Source of the DNA: Candidatus Gastranaerophilales bacterium
GTDB lineage: Bacteria > Cyanobacteriota > Vampirovibrionia > Gastranaerophilales > Gastranaerophilaceae
Assembly: GCA_944323145.1 (NCBI GenBank)
Contig: CALURJ010000013.1
Span: forward strand, 1-55,624
Direction: 5' to 3'
Length of the DNA: 55,624 nucleotides
Shown here in pieces: positions 5,800-55,123 of the stretch (the first letter of the stretch is position 1; every line of letters begins with the position of its first letter). The translations under genes were made by a program, and so were the position numbers. The notes beneath the pieces are model-generated. The model worked only from the letters and a program-made list of their open reading frames with translations, made no database searches and was not told the origin of the DNA.

Positions 5800-5828
5800 T
5801 TGACTTACAAACTTGCTTATTTTAATCT
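5800..5828 (+). promoter_or_regulatory. Possible promoter of the riboswitch-controlled operon
   Basis: TTGACT (5800-5805), a 17-nt spacer and TAATCT (5823-5828). The -10 is poor (3 of 6 to consensus), but position fits: a start near 5835 begins exactly at the riboswitch core. A 14-bp palindrome CTCTTAATTAAGAG (5827-5840) overlaps the start region. Confidence 0.45.
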
Positions 5829-5835
5829 CTTAATT

Positions 5836-5987
5836 AAGAGGAAATGGAGTGAATATCTCCAGCTGCTGCCGCAGCCGTAAAAGCCGGAACACTCAAAGAA
5901 TACACAAAATAACCTGCGTGCAGTCCGGGTATGTGTAAAATATATTTCTTTGAGTCCTCTATTTTTCTAAAATTAGAGGATTTTTTC
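5836..5987 (+). promoter_or_regulatory. Cobalamin riboswitch with Shine-Dalgarno-masking hairpin
   Basis: The leader carries the cobalamin core: GAGGAA, the stem-loop TGGAGTGAATATCTCCA, then GCCGCAGCCGTAA (5838-5880). A 3' box AGTCCGGGTATG follows at 5922-5933. A perfect 10-bp helix can form between ACTCAAAGAA (5891-5900) and TTCTTTGAGT (5946-5955), enclosing the box. Immediately after comes the hairpin TCCTCTA / TAGAGGA (5955-5961 with 5974-5980) followed by six T. The GAGGA of its 3' arm is the Shine-Dalgarno of the next gene, 7 nt before the ATG. The hairpin could therefore act as terminator, as translation block, or both. The core is compact, with little room for the usual 5' stem. Regulation by B12 is inferred from the family. 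Confidence 0.82.
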
Positions 5988-23788: not shown

Positions 23789-23795
23789 ATAAAAT

Positions 23796-24141
23796 AAAGC
23801 AACTCATAAGCCGTGTTCTGTTTCTAAATAATCATCTGTCTGGTATTGAAATTACTTTCAATCTCTAGCGGTTTTTTCTGAGGTAGGCGGACAGCCTTTA
23901 TAACCCTCAACTCAACCTTGCATTCTACAGGGGTTTACCTGGCCGGTATTTCTCAATACCGCCGGTGAAGCTCTTAACTCACCGTTGCACCATCGCTCGT
24001 ACTTTGAAAAGCCGTTAGCAGTATATTTTCTGTGGCACTATCCACCGGCTCACGCCGTCCGGGATTTCCCCGGCTGTCTGTCCTTGAATGCACGGACTTT
24101 CCTCACCTGAATATTTTCAGGCGCGATTATTCGATTGCTTT
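23796..24141 (-). ncRNA. rnpB: RNase P RNA
   Basis: The catalytic RNA that matures tRNA 5' ends. On the minus strand the universal P4 region GAGGAAAGTCCGTGC (plus-strand about 24089-24103) lies near the 5' end, and the 3' hallmark AGAACACGGCTTATGAG (plus-strand 23803-23819) near the 3' end. Between them are the conserved ACAGAAA and GGTAAACCC segments. P1 is closed by AAAGCAA at the 5' end and TTGCTTT at the 3' end. About 346 nt, a type A-like length. The 5' end coincides with the stop codon of the prepilin gene upstream; a possible -10 (TATAAG on the minus strand, plus 24147-24152) lies within that gene's last codons. Confidence 0.95.
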
Positions 24142-24790
24142 AATCTCTTATAGAAGTGTTAATTGTTGCAAATTCTGCAGCTTTTGAATCATTCTCATTG
24201 ATGCGCATTTTTCCGTTTGCAAGAATTTCTATTCTGTACTGATCAAAGTTTTCTTCATCACAGCCGCTATCAGTTTGCAAACAGTTAGGCTCATCAGCTC
24301 CGTTAACATCAATTAATATTGTTCCGATACCTGCATCTTCCACACTGCTTCTATGTCCGGGGTCCCATGCTCCGATAGTATCTGTTAAATCCCAGGTTAC
24401 GCCGTCATTTGTTGTTACTACATAATCATCATCGGCCGAACCGGATTTAATGTTTAACATACTTTTGAACAAACCTGCAAATTTATCATCACCGACATAA
24501 TCTACGCCTTCGTGCCTTACTGATTCATCATAATCAAATCCCCAGGCACATTCATAATCAACAGCTCCTTCATCTAAATCGCATGCCAGATGCATATCAG
24601 GATAAAGACGCTGATCGTTTATAAGTGTACTTACAATTTGTTCGGTTGTATAAAAAGTTTTCTTAACCATCATTTTAGTTTTATTCGGCCTCATACGGAC
24701 AATAGCAGGAGTAACAACCGCTACAATAATACCAATTACCGCAAGAGCAACCATTAATTCTGTAAGTGTAAAACCTCTAAATCTTCTCAT
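24140..24790 (-). CDS. Type IV prepilin-like protein
   Basis: 216 residues with the prepilin N-terminus RGFTLTELMVALAVIGIIVAVV (residues about 5-26): short basic leader, Gly before the cleavage site and Glu at mature position 5. The mature domain has several cysteines (CDLDEGAVDYEC, CLQTDSGC), suggesting disulfides. It ends in ANGKMRINENDS, typical of these pilin-like proteins. GGAAGGA precedes the ATG. Its stop codon overlaps the first bases of rnpB. Major pilin, minor pilin or type II secretion pseudopilin cannot be distinguished. Confidence 0.88.
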   Translation of the reverse strand: MRRFRGFTLTELMVALAVIGIIVAVVTPAIVRMRPNKTKMMVKKTFYTTEQIVSTLINDQRLYPDMHLACDLDEGAVDYECAWGFDYDESVRHEGVDYVGDDKFAGLFKSMLNIKSGSADDDYVVTTNDGVTWDLTDTIGAWDPGHRSSVEDAGIGTILIDVNGADEPNCLQTDSGCDEENFDQYRIEILANGKMRINENDSKAAEFATINTSIRD

Positions 24791-46581: not shown

Positions 46582-46995
46582 TTTTTTGGGGCACGCAAGG
46601 GTCTTTTTTATGTGGCGGGATGAGAACCACTGTATTGAAGAGAGTGTTTTGCGTATGACAGATGGTGCGATTATTTCGGGCAATCGGCTTGTGTAGCGGA
46701 TTTTAGGGGTAGGAAATAATCAAACCATGTGTACCATAAATACTCTTTTTACTCTTTTTCTACTCGGCACAGATGGTGTGATTATTTCGGGCAAAAGGAT
46801 TACAACCCTCTTTCTGCTTGTGTTTTAGGGCGATTAAGGCTTGGTACAAATGGTATGATTATTTTGGGCAAGTGAGTCGTTTGAGGTTTTTGAAAATTCT
46901 GCCGTTCTGTTAAATTTTTTAATTGATACGAAACCGACACAATGCTCGGAAGTAGTGTTCCAATTCTTCATCTTCAGAGTTAATGTGTGTGTACC
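46582..46995 (+). other. Left flank of the Mu-like element, no gene
   Basis: About 410 bp without an ORF. It holds three transposase-binding-like repeats (46657-46871). It also holds a 14-bp near-repeat TGTGTACCATAAAT (46728-46741), which matches TGTGTACCATGAAT at the transposase start codon (46988-47001) except for one base. A T-rich tract follows the tRNA. The boundary with chromosomal DNA must lie between 46582 and about 46657. Confidence 0.65.
46657..46871 (+). repeat. Three 27-bp direct repeats, putative transposase-binding sites
   Basis: Copies at 46657-46683, 46768-46794 and 46845-46871 share the pattern ACARATGGTRYGATTATTT followed by YGGGCAA. Starts are 111 and 77 bp apart. Three like-oriented sites ahead of a MuA homologue mirror the L1-L2-L3 layout of phage Mu. 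A TG dinucleotide at 46656, before the first copy, would fit a TG...CA terminus. Confidence 0.82.
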
Positions 46996-48984
46996 ATGAA
47001 TGAATATGTAACTATTAAAGAAATCGCACAGGCTAAGGGGTTAAAGAGCACTCGTTCAATCCGAATGGAAATCAACAAACCTGAAAGCAAATATATTTCA
47101 AGGGAAGTCAAAGTTAACGGCGGTATCTCATACGAAATATTGTTTTCAAGTTTAGAACCTGAATTACAACAAAAACTTCGGGAATGCGAAACAAAATCAA
47201 CGGCAATTGTTCCGTTGAATTACAAACCGCCTATTATTACAGATAAAGCAAGACAGACGGCAAATCACAGAATGAACATTGTTAAAGCCGCACTTGAACA
47301 CAGAAATAAATATCCGAGTATAAAAGAGGCTGATGCTGAATTTTTAGACCTGTATAATTCTGGATTGTATTTACCAAAAGCATACGAATTTCTGGGCCGT
47401 ATTTCAATCGGAACATTAAGAAGATACATACAAGCCTACAAGAAAACAGGCAACGCAGAATCCCTAATACCTCAATACAAAATAACAAAACAGGGTGAAT
47501 ATAACAGCATTTTAGATGACAATATGAAAAAAGTTCTGCTTGCTCTTTTACTTCATCAGAATAAATTCGGGTACAATACGGCAATCAGGCTTGCAAAACA
47601 AGTGTTGATTAAAAAAGGATATGATGAAGATGCTCTGCCGAGTAATATAACTTTTAAACGGTTTGCGGAGCATTTCAGAAAAAATAATTATGCGGAATGG
47701 GTGTTAAGACGTGAGGGTATGAAAGCCTACCACGATAAGGTTGAACCGTATATTGAAAGGGATATAAGTAAAATAGAAGTTGGAGATGTGTTAATCGCAG
47801 ACGGACACGTTCTCAATTTTCAAGTAATAAATCCGTTTACAGGAAAACCGACCAGAGCAACTTTGGTCGGTTTTTTAGACTGGAAGTCAACAGCTCTTGT
47901 CGGCTATGAAATTATGATGACTGAAAATACTCAGTGCATAGCCTCTGCCCTTAGAAATGCAATTATTAATTTAGGTATTATCCCGAAAGTAGTTTATCAA
48001 GATAATGGTAAAGCATTTAAGGCAAAGTATTTTCAATCTTGTGATTTTGACGAGGAGTGTTTTAACGGAGTGTATGCCAATTTAGATATTCACTCCGTTT
48101 TTGCTAAACCATACAATGCACGTGCAAAAGTTATAGAAAGATTTTTCTTAGATTTTCAGGAAGAATTTGAAAAACTTATGCCAAGTTATATCGGCACTTC
48201 AATTGAAAACCGTCCTGCGTGGATGAATAGAAATGAAAAACTGCATTTACAACTTCATAATCAACAAACAAAAGGAAATATTCCGACAGTACAAGAGACT
48301 ATTAAATATATTAATGCCTGGCTTGAATACAGGAATCAAAAAGCCTGTCCTAATGATCGTTCAAAGAGAATTCAAGAGGTATTAAATTCTGTTCGGAAAC
48401 AAGATATTAATAAATCTGCACTCGATTATTTAATGATGCAAACAGAATCACGAACTATAAATAAACACGGAATAACATTTCTCGGAATGCATTACAGGAG
48501 TGACGTTATACTTGGACTTCGGGATAAGGTTTATGTCAGATATAGCTTATTTGATCTTTCAAAGGTTCATGTTTATTCAATGAAAGGTGAATTTTTATGC
48601 GTGGCTCACAGGGTACAAAAAGTGCATCCGATGGCAAATATTCTTGGCACAGTTAAAGATATGGAGGAATACAAGCAGCAGTACCAAAAGCAACAGAAAA
48701 TTAAAAGCAGACTTATCAAACAAATTAAAAAGACATTTACTAAAGATGAACTTCAGGTTTTAGAAATTGAACCGGAACCTGTTTTGGAAATAGAAGAACA
48801 ACCAAAGCCGAAACGTGAACATAAGCAAACACCTCGTGAACAGCAGATGAACGTGCCGATGTTTAATTCAAATTATGAAAAATATGAATGGTTGATGACA
48901 AACGGAACAACAAATCCGCAGGATAGAAAGTGGCTTGCGGATTATATAAAAAGCGATGAATATTACAACTTATATGGAGATTAA
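46996..48984 (+). CDS. MuA-type DDE transposase, module 1
   Basis: 662 residues from the ATG at 46996; a GTG three codons earlier is possible. The N-terminal winged-helix DNA-binding domain (about 1-60, VTIKEIAQAKGLKSTRSIRM) resembles the Mu end-binding domain. A further helical DNA-binding region follows (about 75-210). The RNase H-like catalytic core has Asp269 (IADGH), Asp336 (YQDNGKAFK) and Glu381 (IERFF). A beta-barrel Mu C-terminal domain is at about 475-550. The acidic and Lys-rich tail (about 580-660) could contact the ATPase, as in MuA. No good Shine-Dalgarno. The ATPase gene follows after 3 nt. Confidence 0.92.
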   Translation: MNEYVTIKEIAQAKGLKSTRSIRMEINKPESKYISREVKVNGGISYEILFSSLEPELQQKLRECETKSTAIVPLNYKPPIITDKARQTANHRMNIVKAALEHRNKYPSIKEADAEFLDLYNSGLYLPKAYEFLGRISIGTLRRYIQAYKKTGNAESLIPQYKITKQGEYNSILDDNMKKVLLALLLHQNKFGYNTAIRLAKQVLIKKGYDEDALPSNITFKRFAEHFRKNNYAEWVLRREGMKAYHDKVEPYIERDISKIEVGDVLIADGHVLNFQVINPFTGKPTRATLVGFLDWKSTALVGYEIMMTENTQCIASALRNAIINLGIIPKVVYQDNGKAFKAKYFQSCDFDEECFNGVYANLDIHSVFAKPYNARAKVIERFFLDFQEEFEKLMPSYIGTSIENRPAWMNRNEKLHLQLHNQQTKGNIPTVQETIKYINAWLEYRNQKACPNDRSKRIQEVLNSVRKQDINKSALDYLMMQTESRTINKHGITFLGMHYRSDVILGLRDKVYVRYSLFDLSKVHVYSMKGEFLCVAHRVQKVHPMANILGTVKDMEEYKQQYQKQQKIKSRLIKQIKKTFTKDELQVLEIEPEPVLEIEEQPKPKREHKQTPREQQMNVPMFNSNYEKYEWLMTNGTTNPQDRKWLADYIKSDEYYNLYGD

Positions 48985-48987
48985 TCT

Positions 48988-49704
48988 ATGAAGAAAACAT
49001 TTATTAAAACAAAAAACGTCAAGCGGTTTGTGGCTTTGATGGATGAGTTGCAGAAACTTCCGCCGAACATTCCAAAACTTGCATTAGTTTACGGCGACCA
49101 TGGGCTTGGAAAATCTCAGACAATCCAGTGGTGGGCAGATAAAAACGATTCTGTATATGTTCGGGCAACGCAAGGGATGACGAGCAGATGGCTTTTATCT
49201 GAAATTGCGGAGGAACTTGGAGAAGAACCTTACTGGCATACGCAGGAAACATTTGAACTCATAGAGAATTATTTAAGGCAGAATCCTAAAATAATTATTG
49301 TTGATGAGATTGATTATTTGATTGAAAAACATACGGTTGAGACTTTAAGGGATTTGCACGATAGGACAGCTTGTCCGATAGTTCTAGTCGGAATGGGGGC
49401 GGCTGACAAAAAACTTGCAAGATATCCGCATCTTGTAGATCGTCTGTATAAAACTTTGAAATTTGAACAATTTAATGCTGAAGATATAACCGAGATTCTT
49501 CAACAAATAACCGATTTGGAGTTTACTCCTGATGCAATAAATTACCTTACAACAAGGACAAACCAATTCAGGCAACTGGTTAAGTTGATTAATAAAATAG
49601 AAAAACTGTCTGAAACAAACAAAATTGATGAGATAGACGAATATACATTGAAAGGATTATTAAATGAAAGACAGAATCTTAAGGCTTTGCAGAAGGTTGG
49701 ATAA
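48988..49704 (+). CDS. MuB/TniB-type AAA+ ATPase, module 1
   Basis: 238 residues, GGAG upstream. Walker A GDHGLGKSQ (about 36-44), Walker B IIIVDEID (about 98-105), sensor-like LVGMG, and a C-terminal helical lid. Such ATPases coat target DNA, select insertion sites and activate the transposase. It lacks the N-terminal helix-turn-helix of MuB that the second module's ATPase has, so it resembles TniB or TnsC-like proteins in length. The next gene overlaps by 41 nt. Confidence 0.9.
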   Translation: MKKTFIKTKNVKRFVALMDELQKLPPNIPKLALVYGDHGLGKSQTIQWWADKNDSVYVRATQGMTSRWLLSEIAEELGEEPYWHTQETFELIENYLRQNPKIIIVDEIDYLIEKHTVETLRDLHDRTACPIVLVGMGAADKKLARYPHLVDRLYKTLKFEQFNAEDITEILQQITDLEFTPDAINYLTTRTNQFRQLVKLINKIEKLSETNKIDEIDEYTLKGLLNERQNLKALQKVG

Positions 49705-50682: not shown

Positions 50683-50898
50683 ATGTCAAATTGTGTTTAT
50701 TGCAAAAAACAAATTTTAACTAAATTTATTTTTTCCCTTTTGGATCTTAAATCAAAAGAAATTCAGATGGCTTTGAATATTTCCAAAAGTGTAGTAAGCC
50801 GCTATTTGACTGGGGAGAGAGGGTGTCCGGAAATTGACCTTTATATTATTGAAAAGATTTTCGGAATAAAAGTAAAGGATTACACAATTAATGAATGA
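50683..50898 (+). CDS. Small helix-turn-helix protein
   Basis: 71 residues from the ATG at 50683 (GAGAGG upstream; an in-frame TTG lies three codons earlier). A Cro/CI-type helix-turn-helix is visible: SKEIQMALNISKSVVSRYLTGER (about 24-46). The N-terminus has CVYCKKQ, a lone Cys pair that may bind metal. It overlaps the transposase start by 8 nt. By position it could be the module's repressor or the Mu Ner equivalent, acting on the upstream palindrome. Confidence 0.75.
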   Translation: MSNCVYCKKQILTKFIFSLLDLKSKEIQMALNISKSVVSRYLTGERGCPEIDLYIIEKIFGIKVKDYTINE

Positions 50899-52834
50899 AA
50901 CCAAGCAAGTAAAATCAAATATTCCGGCTTGGATTTCAATTCAAGAAGCGTGTAATCTTTTGAATGTCAAAGAGAAGACAATCAAAAATCGCTGCTACAA
51001 AGGTGATTTTATTTATAAAATTGAAGTAAAAGATAATATAAAACAAATTTTTATTCGTTATTCATCTTTACCTATATCAAAAAAAATTGACAACGAATCT
51101 GATAATAAAAAATATTCTGAAGCCCCTTTATGGTCACGCATTCAGGCAGATAAATACATAGATGTTATCCAAAAAAGTCTTTGTTTGAGAGGCAGAGCCT
51201 TAAAACTGTTCATCGAAAATTGGAATAAAAATAATCCTGATAACCAAACGTCTTATTCTTCCTTAATTAGAATGAGAAATAGATACTTTGCTTGTGGAAT
51301 AAATGGTTTACTATCAAGATATGGAAACAATTCAGGCAGATCAATAATAAAAGATTGCTATTTTGATTACTTCAAAAATTTGTATTTGATGGAGGGTGCT
51401 CCCTCTTTACAAACCTGTTGGGATTTGACACTTGGCTATGCAATGAGAGAAAACGGAGTTGAAAGAGTCAATTTCCCAAGTTGTTCAACCTTTAAACGCA
51501 GGTTAAGACGTGAAGTACCAAAACAAAGTATTTATTTAGCGAGATATGGGGAATCCGCTTGGAATAGGAAATACGGCAATTACATTGATAGAGACTACTC
51601 TACTGTAATTTGCGGTGAAGCGTGGGTTTCAGATCACGCTCAGATAGACGTTGCCTGTCTTACTCAAGACGGCAACGTTGTATTTCCTTGGGTTACAGCT
51701 TGGAGAGATTATAAATCAGGGAAATGGCTCGGTTGGATATTGCAATCAGGAAATCCAAATTCGGATCATATTTTTCAATCATTTTATTATGCGGTCAATG
51801 AATTTGGCTTACCTAAAGATGTCATCATAGATAACGGCAAGGACTATCGTTCGAAAGACTTTGCCGGCGGACGTCAATTTAAAGTTGAAACCAATCAACG
51901 CAAAACAAGGTCTATGCTTGGAGAATTGAATGTCAATGTACACTTCGCTCTTCCATATAATGCACAGACAAAACCAATTGAAAGAGATTTCTTAAAAATA
52001 AAGGAACTGCTCTCTAAACACTGTGTTGGATATCGTGGCGGCAATGTTGTTGAACGACCTGAAAAACTTGCAAAAGAGATTAAAGCAGGAAAAATCATTC
52101 CGTTTGAACAGTTTAAGGAAATATTTGACGATTTTGTGATTAATGTCTTAAACAAACGTCCGTCACAAGGTAAAAATCTTGCGGGATTATCACCAAACCA
52201 ATTATTTAATCAGGAATTTGCAGAAAAAATCAGACCATCAAAAGATGCTCTTAAATTGTTCTGCATGAGGACATCAAAAACATTCACAATTATTAGAAAC
52301 GGCATTAAGGATAATGAACTCGGTATTACTTATTGGGCTGATTGGATGGTTTCAAAAACGAGATTAAAGGTTTATCTCCGTCGGGATGTTCAAAATTACA
52401 AAGAGGCTTGGGCTTTTAGAGCCGATAATAACGAATTTGTCGGCAAAGTTACTGCGGTCAAAGCTGTTGCGGCTCTTCAAGCAGACGAAATTTCAAAAGA
52501 AGCTTTCAAAGAGGCTATGGCTATTAAAAAACGCAGTTTGAAGATTGCAAAATCATATATTAAACAAACTCGTGAGATTAGCCTTGAAGAAAAATGTGCA
52601 AATTATAAAGCCGCATACGCAAGCGTTGAAAAGCAAACCAAGCCAAAAGTTTCGTTAATCGCTAACACCAAAATGGATAAAGTTATTCAAAAAAGTAAAG
52701 AAATGGAATCCTTTGGGAAATACGATTTATCAATGTTTTTAAACGATAGCAAGCCAGAAGAAAAACCGCTCTATTTATACGAGACGGATAAAATTCTCGA
52801 TCAAGAATTAAAAGGAGTCGCCAATGGATATTAG
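50891..52834 (+). CDS. MuA-type DDE transposase, module 2
   Basis: 647 residues. N-terminal MuA-like winged helix (about 10-60, WISIQEACNLLNVKEKTIKNRCYKG). Helical end-binding domain (about 75-220). Catalytic triad Asp248 (VSDHAQID), Asp314 (IIDNGKDYR) and Glu364 (PIERDF). Mu C-terminal barrel (about 455-525) and a helical tail. It is clearly divergent from module 1's transposase: no long identical stretches, and different spacing from Asp to Glu. Overlaps the HTH gene and the next ATPase gene, as in a Mu-type operon. Confidence 0.92.
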   Translation: MNETKQVKSNIPAWISIQEACNLLNVKEKTIKNRCYKGDFIYKIEVKDNIKQIFIRYSSLPISKKIDNESDNKKYSEAPLWSRIQADKYIDVIQKSLCLRGRALKLFIENWNKNNPDNQTSYSSLIRMRNRYFACGINGLLSRYGNNSGRSIIKDCYFDYFKNLYLMEGAPSLQTCWDLTLGYAMRENGVERVNFPSCSTFKRRLRREVPKQSIYLARYGESAWNRKYGNYIDRDYSTVICGEAWVSDHAQIDVACLTQDGNVVFPWVTAWRDYKSGKWLGWILQSGNPNSDHIFQSFYYAVNEFGLPKDVIIDNGKDYRSKDFAGGRQFKVETNQRKTRSMLGELNVNVHFALPYNAQTKPIERDFLKIKELLSKHCVGYRGGNVVERPEKLAKEIKAGKIIPFEQFKEIFDDFVINVLNKRPSQGKNLAGLSPNQLFNQEFAEKIRPSKDALKLFCMRTSKTFTIIRNGIKDNELGITYWADWMVSKTRLKVYLRRDVQNYKEAWAFRADNNEFVGKVTAVKAVAALQADEISKEAFKEAMAIKKRSLKIAKSYIKQTREISLEEKCANYKAAYASVEKQTKPKVSLIANTKMDKVIQKSKEMESFGKYDLSMFLNDSKPEEKPLYLYETDKILDQELKGVANGY

Positions 52835-53702
52835 AGCCGAATTAAAAGATTTGATGGAATCTAAAAATTACAGTATAGCATACGTTTCAACCGCTACAGG
52901 GATTGCTAAGTCTACAATCAGTATGTGGATGAACGGTAATTACAACGGCAAAAACGATAAAATTACCGATGCTATAAATAATTTTATCCAACGTGAACAC
53001 GAACGTTCCGGCAACAGCGACCTGCCTTTTGTAGATATTTCAACGGTTAAATATATCACTGAAATCGGCAGACTGTGCCATACACAGGGTAAAATCGGAG
53101 TTTGTGTCGGTAAAGCCGGACTCGGTAAAACCGTTGCCGTAAAAAGATATACCAAAGAATTTATGGACTCAATCCTTATTGAAAGCGATTCAGGCTACAC
53201 TGCAAAATCTCTTCTCAAGGAAATTCACAGACGTTTAGGACTTTCCGGTAAGGGTTCGGTTTATGACTTGATGGATGAAGTCGTCAGAAAATTAAACCAA
53301 TCAGGCAGACTTTTAATTATTGATGAGGCTGAAAATCTTCCATATAGAGCCTTAGAAATTACTCGCCGGATCCACGATAAAACAGGTGTAGGTATTCTTT
53401 TAGTGGGTAGAGGAATTCTGTTAGAAAACCTGAAAGGTTACAACAATCAGTATGACCAGTTGTACTCAAGAGTCAAATTTACAAAAATTATAGACAAAAT
53501 TTTAATTCAAGACGTCATAAAAATTCTTGAATCTATCGGACAGAATACAAAACTGGCTGAAACATATCTTCAGTATTCGGATGGAAATACCAGAAGATTA
53601 GAACACTTAATTTCCCACAGTATCAGCATTGCCAAATTCAACGGTAAAGCGGAGGTCGATGATGCTGTGCTTAAACAAACTTCCAAATTATTAATGGCAT
53701 AG
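52824..53702 (+). CDS. MuB-type AAA+ target-activating ATPase, module 2
   Basis: 292 residues, the size of Mu MuB (312). N-terminal helix-turn-helix (about 1-60, YSIAYVSTATGIAKSTISMWMNG) as in MuB, then AAA+ with Walker A GKAGLGKT (about 96-103), Walker B LLIIDEAENL and LLVGRG, then a C-terminal helical domain. Binds DNA cooperatively and delivers targets to the transposase, giving immunity in Mu. Overlaps the transposase gene by 11 nt. Confidence 0.93.
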   Translation: MDIRAELKDLMESKNYSIAYVSTATGIAKSTISMWMNGNYNGKNDKITDAINNFIQREHERSGNSDLPFVDISTVKYITEIGRLCHTQGKIGVCVGKAGLGKTVAVKRYTKEFMDSILIESDSGYTAKSLLKEIHRRLGLSGKGSVYDLMDEVVRKLNQSGRLLIIDEAENLPYRALEITRRIHDKTGVGILLVGRGILLENLKGYNNQYDQLYSRVKFTKIIDKILIQDVIKILESIGQNTKLAETYLQYSDGNTRRLEHLISHSISIAKFNGKAEVDDAVLKQTSKLLMA

Positions 53703-53712
53703 GGGGTATTAA

Positions 53713-53874
53713 ATGAACGGTAAGAACTTCCAACCCGACACTTCATTATGGTTACACATATTTTTAATAGCTCTAGCCATTTTTATTTTGGGAGTTCAAA
53801 TCGGAATCAAGCACGGACGTGAGTTACAGCTTGAGGATATGAGGATAAAGTATGGCTACGACTTTTCAGATTAG
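53713..53874 (+). CDS. Small single-pass membrane peptide
   Basis: 53 residues, GGGGG upstream. One membrane helix (LHIFLIALAIFILGVQIGI, about residues 14-32), a polar N-terminus and a basic then acidic C-terminus. It overlaps the gemA start by 23 nt, so it belongs to the same transcript. Role unknown; early regions of Mu-like phages often contain such peptides. Confidence 0.68.
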   Translation: MNGKNFQPDTSLWLHIFLIALAIFILGVQIGIKHGRELQLEDMRIKYGYDFSD

Positions 53875-54304
53875 AAAAATTCATGCATTAAAAAATGTTA
53901 TAGGTATGGATGACGACTTATATCGTGAAATGCTTATGTCTTTTGATGTTACATCATCAAAGGATTTGACATTTACTGAAGCTGCAATTTTTGTAGATAT
54001 CCTTGAAGATAAAGCCGTTGCAATAAACAAATGGATTAAACAGCCGAAAAAATATGCGGATTTGAATCGCACAGAAAACATGGCATCTGATGCACAACTC
54101 AGAATGATTGAGGGATTGTGGAGAGATGTTTGCTATTTCAATGATGATAAGTTTGCGAAAAAATCCCTGAGAAAGTTTTTAAAATCAAAGTTTAAGGTCG
54201 ATGACATTATGTTTTTGACCAGAGCCAAAGCCTGTAAAGTTATTCAGGCAATAACGGCAATAAAAAAGAAATTAAAAGAAAAAAGTGCGGCCACACTTGA
54301 GTAG
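53852..54304 (+). CDS. Mu gp16-family regulatory protein GemA
   Basis: 150 residues matching the GemA/gp16 (DUF1018) family. The N-terminal block IRKIHALKNVIGMDDDLYREML is followed by ASDAQLRMIEGLWRDVC and RKFLKSKFKVDDIMFLTRAKACKVIQAI. In Mu, GemA alters host gene expression and DNA supercoiling and acts in the early operon. Strong support that this region is Mu-like rather than a bare transposon. Confidence 0.88.
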   Translation: MATTFQIRKIHALKNVIGMDDDLYREMLMSFDVTSSKDLTFTEAAIFVDILEDKAVAINKWIKQPKKYADLNRTENMASDAQLRMIEGLWRDVCYFNDDKFAKKSLRKFLKSKFKVDDIMFLTRAKACKVIQAITAIKKKLKEKSAATLE

Positions 54305-54329: not shown

Positions 54330-54653
54330 ATGATGCTAACAGCAGAAAAAACAACCGATTCAATGGGTTCGTTGATGAAAAACCAATTTTTTGGAGAAGT
54401 CTCTCACAGTTCTGATGATCCTAAAGAATGTGCAATGATGGGATTAATCAGGAATCAAAAAATTGACCTTGAAGAGCGTTTGAACGATGCAAAATTGAAG
54501 TTTGCCGATGCAAATCTGGTTAAAGATAACTGGAGTTGTGCCAAAGAACGTGAAATTGATTGCAAGGTTCTTGAAGGACAAATCTTCATCTTATCTAAGA
54601 TCGAACGAGACTTAGAAGATATGCTTACCCCTGCAAAAATGCCTCCCGACTAA
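54330..54653 (+). CDS. Phage protein of unknown function
   Basis: 107 residues from the ATG at 54330 with AAGGAG 6 nt upstream; the frame back to 54285 overlaps gemA and has no ribosome site. Acidic, helical, with a coiled-coil-like second half (IDLEERLNDAKLKFADANL, ILSKIERDLEDML). No known domain. The hammerhead ribozyme begins about 12 nt after its stop. Confidence 0.7.
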   Translation: MMLTAEKTTDSMGSLMKNQFFGEVSHSSDDPKECAMMGLIRNQKIDLEERLNDAKLKFADANLVKDNWSCAKEREIDCKVLEGQIFILSKIERDLEDMLTPAKMPPD

Positions 54654-54664
54654 AGTTTACACGA

Positions 54665-54729
54665 GGTCGAAACGGTCGGCTAACAGTGCAAGCTGACCGT
54701 CTTAACGTAATGCGTTAACTGATGAGACC
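54665..54729 (+). ncRNA. Type II hammerhead self-cleaving ribozyme
   Basis: Stem II strands GGTC (54665-54668) and GACC (54726-54729), open at the ends, make it type II. GAA is at 54669-54671. Stem III is 54672-54681 with 54691-54700: ten pairs including A15.1-U16.1 and one G-U, loop of 9 nt. Cleavage nucleotide C17 is 54701. Stem I is TTAACG / CGTTAA (54702-54707 and 54713-54718), loop of 5 nt. The core CUGAUGA is at 54719-54725, with G10.1 and C11.1 as required. Every conserved core base is present. Self-cleavage after 54701 would split the early transcript 49 nt before the Mor-like start codon. Not tested here. Confidence 0.95.
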
Positions 54730-54750
54730 ATCATTAAATAAGAGGAGATT

Positions 54751-55062
54751 ATGGATTACAAGCCTTGGATGGATTTAATAAAACCTGAAGATATGCCAAA
54801 CGATGACTTGAAGTTCATCGCAGAATCTGCCGGCATAAAATCTGCCTTGGCTCTTATTTTCTGCTCGCCGGGATTAACAGTAAGTATCCCGAAAAATCCG
54901 TTTCGTGAGATAAAAGAAAAATATATCATGAGCCAGTATGATGGCAGAAAATATACCGTAAACCGCCTCGCAATTGAATGTGATTTATCTCAAAGATATA
55001 TTTATAAAATTATAAAAAAGAATCTCCACAAAAAGCACAACTTGCCAAAGTCGGATAAATAG
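54751..55062 (+). CDS. Mor/C-type transcription activator
   Basis: 103 residues with AGAGGAG before the ATG. Mor-family architecture: an N-terminal dimerisation part (about 1-60, LKFIAESAGIKSALALIFCSPGLTVSIPK) and a C-terminal helix-turn-helix (about 66-95, GRKYTVNRLAIECDLSQRYIYKII). In Mu, Mor switches on middle transcription. The hammerhead lies in its leader, so RNA cleavage would separate it from the upstream early mRNA. A terminator follows. Confidence 0.85.
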   Translation: MDYKPWMDLIKPEDMPNDDLKFIAESAGIKSALALIFCSPGLTVSIPKNPFREIKEKYIMSQYDGRKYTVNRLAIECDLSQRYIYKIIKKNLHKKHNLPKSDK

Positions 55063-55086: not shown

Positions 55087-55123
55087 GCTCTAATGTTTCG
55101 TTGATTTGCATTAGGGCTTTTTT
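55087..55123 (+). terminator. Rho-independent terminator after the Mor-like gene
   Basis: GCTCTAATG / CATTAGGGC (one G-T pair) with a 13-nt loop and a T run. Ends the early operon. Confidence 0.8.

Follow-up and report, generated by a model that had tools for sequence, protein, structure and literature searches.

A type II hammerhead ribozyme linked to the mor activator gene of Mu-like prophages in Gastranaerophilales

The window, which here means the whole analysed stretch of 55,624 nucleotides from a Candidatus Gastranaerophilales bacterium, contained a complete type II hammerhead on the + strand at 54665-54729, with stem II open and stems I and III closed by loops, as read directly from the sequence. 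The element is hosted by a Mu-like prophage and lies upstream of a gene for a Mor-like transcription activator (mor). It is very probably a functional hammerhead, judging from sequence, structure, and covariation. With a probability of roughly 65%, it processes the early polycistronic RNA of the prophage and frees mor as an mRNA of its own.

All bases of the catalytic core were present, including CUGAUGA, GAA, the A15.1-U16.1 pair, and C17 at 54701. Stem I comprised 6 bp, stem II 4 bp, and stem III 10 bp (Table 1). In order, the element consists of GGTC GAA ACGGTCGGCT AACAGTGCA AGCTGACCGT C TTAACG TAATG CGTTAA CTGATGA GACC. An earlier note on this DNA had listed the core bases and coordinates of a type II hammerhead, which proved exact to the base on direct reading, and the three stems open at stem II that it described were recovered both in the sequence and by folding. 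The unconstrained minimum free energy (MFE) structure of the 65-mer alone was the hammerhead fold (-23.0 kcal/mol, z -3.5). With native flanks, the MFE structure kept stems I and III and paired the stem II/core region otherwise, which counts against functional processing; nearest-neighbour MFE models omit the energy of the non-canonical hammerhead core. A minus-strand R1 match at 54672-54700 was considered as a second ribozyme and rejected, as it represents the near-palindromic stem III.

Table 1. Parts of the hammerhead and neighbouring prophage features in the window.
Feature	Position	Strand	Basis or remark
MuA-like transposase and MuB-like ATPase, same early region	50891-53702	+	Profile matches
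GemA-like early protein of Mu-like phages	53852-54304	+	Pfam GemA 1.1e-17
Upstream ORF without assigned function	54330-54653	+	Stop TAA 11 nt before ribozyme
Stem II 5' strand GGUC (GGTC)	54665-54668	+	Open end; pairs with GACC 54726-54729; A54664 precedes
Catalytic core G12 A13 A14 (GAA)	54669-54671	+	Invariant in 10-sequence alignment A1
Stem III hairpin ACGGUCGGCU / AGCUGACCGU, 9-nt loop, A15.1-U16.1 at base	54672-54700	+	Sequence, fold
Stem III strands ACGGTCGGCT x AGCTGACCGT	54672-54681 x 54691-54700	+	Includes A15.1-U16.1
C17, predicted cleavage 3' of base	54701	+	Direct sequence reading
Stem I hairpin UUAACG-UAAUG-CGUUAA	54702-54718	+	TTAACG 54702-54707 x CGTTAA 54713-54718
Catalytic core CUGAUGA (CTGATGA)	54719-54725	+	Direct sequence reading
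Stem II 3' strand GACC	54726-54729	+	Direct sequence reading
mor, Mor-like transcription activator, 103 aa	54751-55062	+	PHROG 836 late transcriptional activator, E 4e-13
Intrinsic-terminator-like hairpin + U6 after mor	55087-55123	+	Fold -12.5 kcal/mol, z -4.4

The number of hammerheads expected by chance was estimated in 826 Mb of simulated sequence with the dinucleotide composition of the window. A permissive descriptor (stems I/II/III of at least 3/2/4 bp) gave 0.12 expected matches per window, a descriptor of at least 4/4/5 bp gave 0.003, and one of at least 6/4/8 bp found no match in the entire 826 Mb. The window contained exactly one match at each of these three levels, and its hammerhead is thus far beyond chance. 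Ten hammerheads from homologous mor loci formed an alignment of 66 columns (A1) in which the core did not vary. Scored against the hammerhead structure, 99.5% of the pair cells in A1 were paired and nine pairs changed on both sides, including five of the ten pairs in stem III and four of the six in stem I. The covariation score was 0.379, compared with 0.119 in shuffles (0/500), and it was lost when partners were slid. Stem II was invariant in A1 and varied only in A2, a broader collection of 50 distinct sequences, where 18 of 20 pairs changed on both sides, in an alignment that leans towards the structure because it was fitted to the model. The earlier note had looked for a refutation to homologous prophages whose stems lacked compensatory changes, and the hammerhead survived this comparison through the covariation in A1 and A2. 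An inert relic or a chance fold without activity, for which the ability of the flanks to compete with the hammerhead fold might speak, is therefore extremely unlikely given the chance estimate, the covariation, and a core that was invariant in all aligned relatives.

The early region of the window held MuA-like, MuB-like, GemA, and Mor genes together, which bears out the assignment of the ribozyme to a Mu-like early region in the earlier note. The mor product also matched PHROG 532 (E 1e-4), and its match to Pfam Mor was marginal (23.6 bits, just under the cut-off of 24.9). Mor activates middle transcription in phage Mu (PMC4390567). The early region was approximately 96% identical to that of a related prophage in G001, which carried portal, terminase, major head, sheath, tape measure, and baseplate genes. 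The window contig stops at 55624, so phage structural genes were seen only in the G001 prophage, whose head, tail, and terminase genes indicate that the hammerhead-bearing elements are real phages. Two complete pairs of MuA-like and MuB-like genes were arranged in tandem in the window, at 46987-49704 and 50891-53702 (PHROG 310 and 296 in each). This arrangement is no artefact of a single genome assembly, because the region from 48078, with parts of both sets, was 96% identical in G001. Elsewhere, the window contained ordinary host RNAs, namely an AdoCbl-II riboswitch (5825-5900) and a class A RNase P RNA (23791-24142).

Homologues of the downstream Mor-like protein were found in nine of the 33 genomes of the genus and in one IMG/VR contig. 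A covariance model identified 61 hammerheads in the family, spread over 40 of 288 genomes and 19 of 41 genera; across the order, 34 of 192 sampled genomes gave a match. Among 386 genomes sampled across the phylum there were 29 positives, all within the order Gastranaerophilales. In paired coordinates from the 288 genomes, 42 of the 61 family hammerheads preceded a Mor homologue by 14-140 nt, and another 13 were located 292-329 nt before the first Mor homologue, ahead of a small gene. Four matches in further families of the order had divergent stems, and the next gene, 11-78 nt downstream, again encoded a Mor-like protein, itself divergent. The position directly upstream of a Mor-like activator, already pointed out in the earlier note, was thus confirmed and is conserved in dozens of prophages. 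Nearly all Mor homologues of at least 50% identity had the ribozyme (23 of 25), with the gene starting 14-26 nt after it, compared with four of 26 at 30-35% identity; most Mor homologues below 40% identity had no detectable ribozyme upstream. Upstream of 20 ribozyme-less mor genes, neither Rfam nor type I/II/III descriptors revealed any other ribozyme. Judging from these comparisons, the association of the hammerhead with mor is ancient and specific but does not extend to every case. In G205 (L126, G205:C3), whose Mor is 60% identical, a perfect 11-bp hairpin and no hammerhead lay between the upstream stop codon and mor. A plain hairpin at the site of the ribozyme fits a role in defining an RNA end and argues against an indispensable catalytic switch. 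Since some Mor homologues lack it, the ribozyme is not essential to mor function in general, and such homologues, in G205 and among most of those below 40% identity, count against functional processing.

Neither the Mor protein nor the ribozyme DNA had a match in the phage collection, and no R1 match was present in the first 5.8 kb of Burkholderia phage Paku, which among named relatives is closest to one of the viral contigs with a hammerhead. Several viral contigs contained multiple hammerheads: L037 (IMGVR_UViG_3300036832_000364) harbored six type II hammerheads within 2.7 kb (60-2753), in nearly every intergenic gap, and four, three, and three were present in L040, L033, and L031, respectively. 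In L054, L055, L147-L149, and L152, hammerheads of a second lineage, whose stem II is ATTCC/GGAAT (or AATCC/GGATT), were located 5-6 nt before small genes of no assigned function that were not mor-like.

Compared with the G001 prophage, the window lacked 353 bp, comprising exactly one hammerhead and the 89-aa gene that separates the two hammerheads there. On its left side, the window ribozyme had the flank of the first copy in G001, and its body was identical to the second copy, which places the join within the first 17 shared bases. The window allele is best read, on this sequence pattern, as a deletion by recombination between ribozymes; an insertion in the other direction, by which G001 gained the segment, could also account for the difference. 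A loss of exactly one ribozyme and one gene, joined inside shared ribozyme sequence, is what would be expected if the ribozyme pair were kept mainly as short homology that allows genes to be gained or lost without disturbing their neighbours, with cleavage being secondary. Such a module border is distinctly improbable, as the allele represents a single event of unproven direction and the stems vary by compensation rather than remaining identical, a pattern that selection for homology alone would not yield.

The reading preferred here is the processing of the early transcript. The early RNA is predicted to cut itself by default, without a ligand, between C54701 and U54702. The downstream piece would be a short mor mRNA with a 5'-hydroxyl, the stem I hairpin at its 5' terminus, and a 49-nt leader that contains a Shine-Dalgarno sequence; this leader length, from 54702 to the ATG at 54751, agrees with the earlier note. 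Its 3' end would be formed by the terminator-like hairpin after mor, and the upstream piece would carry the stable stem III hairpin and a 2',3'-cyclic phosphate at its own 3' end. Stabilisation through 5'-hydroxyl and hairpin RNA ends is a general expectation. The likely benefit would be that the stability and dosage of the activator mRNA are uncoupled from the long transposase/early-gene RNA. The second copy, which occurs in many relatives and was lost in the window, may serve the same role for the small gene ahead of mor. Processing is favored by the lack of a consensus promoter on the + strand between the ribozyme and mor, and by the terminator-like hairpin after mor in two prophages, as G001 likewise had a hairpin and U-run 3' of mor; the hairpin in the window was missed by a consensus scan because its loop is 11 nt long. 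A precedent is provided by tandem phage hammerheads that were cleaved in vitro and in E. coli, for which the processing of long phage transcripts was proposed (PMC3088659).

The earlier note had instead suggested RNA-level control of the switch from early to middle transcription. In such a regulated switch, cleavage would be conditional on upstream ORF translation, on a ligand, or on a phage protein, and would time Mor synthesis. The conserved link to an activator gene is consistent with this proposal, as is the upstream stop codon, which in 45 of 60 cases was 0-11 nt away from the ribozyme, so that a terminating ribosome could mask stem II. On the other hand, stop codons this close are expected anyway from compact phage genomes, no conserved aptamer-like insertion was observed, and the ribozyme also precedes an unrelated small gene and, in other phages, many different genes, for which constitutive processing is the simpler reading. 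A regulated switch is therefore considered unlikely. Its ribosome-gated form, in which ribosomes finishing the upstream ORF would keep the ribozyme unfolded and the mor mRNA would be freed when early translation changes, appears doubtful to a high degree; if true, such a hammerhead would be a translation-sensing timer of the phage switch. Hammerheads in 5'-UTRs serve as off-switches in engineered systems, and the ribozyme does sit upstream of an ORF, so that cleavage might instead strip the 5' end from the early RNA, with the mor mRNA decaying and Mor staying low in the lysogen. Down-regulation of this kind is very unlikely, because the ribosome-binding site and a 5'-terminal hairpin remain with mor after cleavage and translation of mor does not need the upstream piece.

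The anatomy of the subtype was compared among 72 distinct hammerheads, some of them from 23 viral contigs, many of which belong to unrelated phages. Immediately before stem II (54664 in the window), all 72 had A, compared with 28% at other GGTC sites, and the base after stem II was A in 62. The stem I loop was mostly U-N-R-N-G, and H17 was C in 67 and A in five. The conservation of stem II in the viral contigs is partly by construction, because GGTC/GACC was prescribed by the pattern used to collect them, which placed no constraint on the flanking A or the loop I sequence. These sequences suggest that loop I makes a tertiary contact with stem II at its open end. The window also had a perfect match between UAAUG in loop I (54708-54712) and CAUUA in the 3' tail (54732-54736). 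Among the 71 hammerheads with a 5-nt loop, six had such a pairing of at least 4 bp, compared with 6.9 expected from shuffled tails, and the pseudoknot was rejected as a feature of the subtype. A loop I/3'-tail pseudoknot is present in most published type II hammerheads (PMC3088659), whereas in the window group it did not exceed shuffles.

The Rfam hammerhead models, which the earlier note had offered as a check, gave no match in the window, whether at the gathering score or with E<=10. The best-scoring of the relatives tested reached 30.4 bits with RF02276 (Hammerhead_II), below the gathering cut-off of 37. This model shares the core, the A-U base of stem III, C17, and a consensus A before stem II with the window element, but it has a 2-bp stem II and a 3' tail, whereas stem II in the window is 4 bp. 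The miss is probably due to the 2-bp stem II and tail of the model and not to the absence of a hammerhead. The current Rfam model thus misses a widespread 4-bp stem II subtype.

Type II hammerheads are very common in bacteria (Perreault, 2011; PMC3088659), and the statement in the earlier note that type II is the rarest topology is wrong for this domain. In prophages, multiple copies flank single genes, and cleavage was shown for three arrays (PMC3088659). These bacterial and phage ribozymes resemble the window group in their core, three stems, open stem II, intergenic location in prophages, and multi-copy flanking, whereas the window group is distinguished by a 4-bp stem II (GGUC/GACC), a U-N-R-N-G pentaloop, and a fixed position beside mor. 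The HHphage of haloviruses HF1/HF2 is also a hammerhead located 13 nt upstream of an early gene, but it has a variant core, belongs to an archaeal lytic virus, and precedes a helicase gene rather than an activator (PMC3088659). According to the accessible text of PMC10085705, the strongest gene association of bacterial hammerheads and twisters is with Mu-like phages, for a reason given as unknown; those ribozymes are likewise self-cleaving and associated with Mu-like phages, and a link to mor itself is not stated in that text. Ribozymes of this kind in Mu-like phages are therefore already known. What appears to be new is the conserved linkage to mor, the 4-bp stem II subtype missed by Rfam, and the window allele without the gene between two ribozymes.

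The roles of hammerheads in bacteria and phages are an acknowledged open question (PMC6155905; PMC10085705). The present case links a ribozyme, in different genera and families, to a single gene whose role is known, as its product starts middle transcription in Mu-like phages. Natural comparisons, between prophages with and without the second ribozyme and with one in which a plain hairpin replaces the ribozyme, make its function testable.
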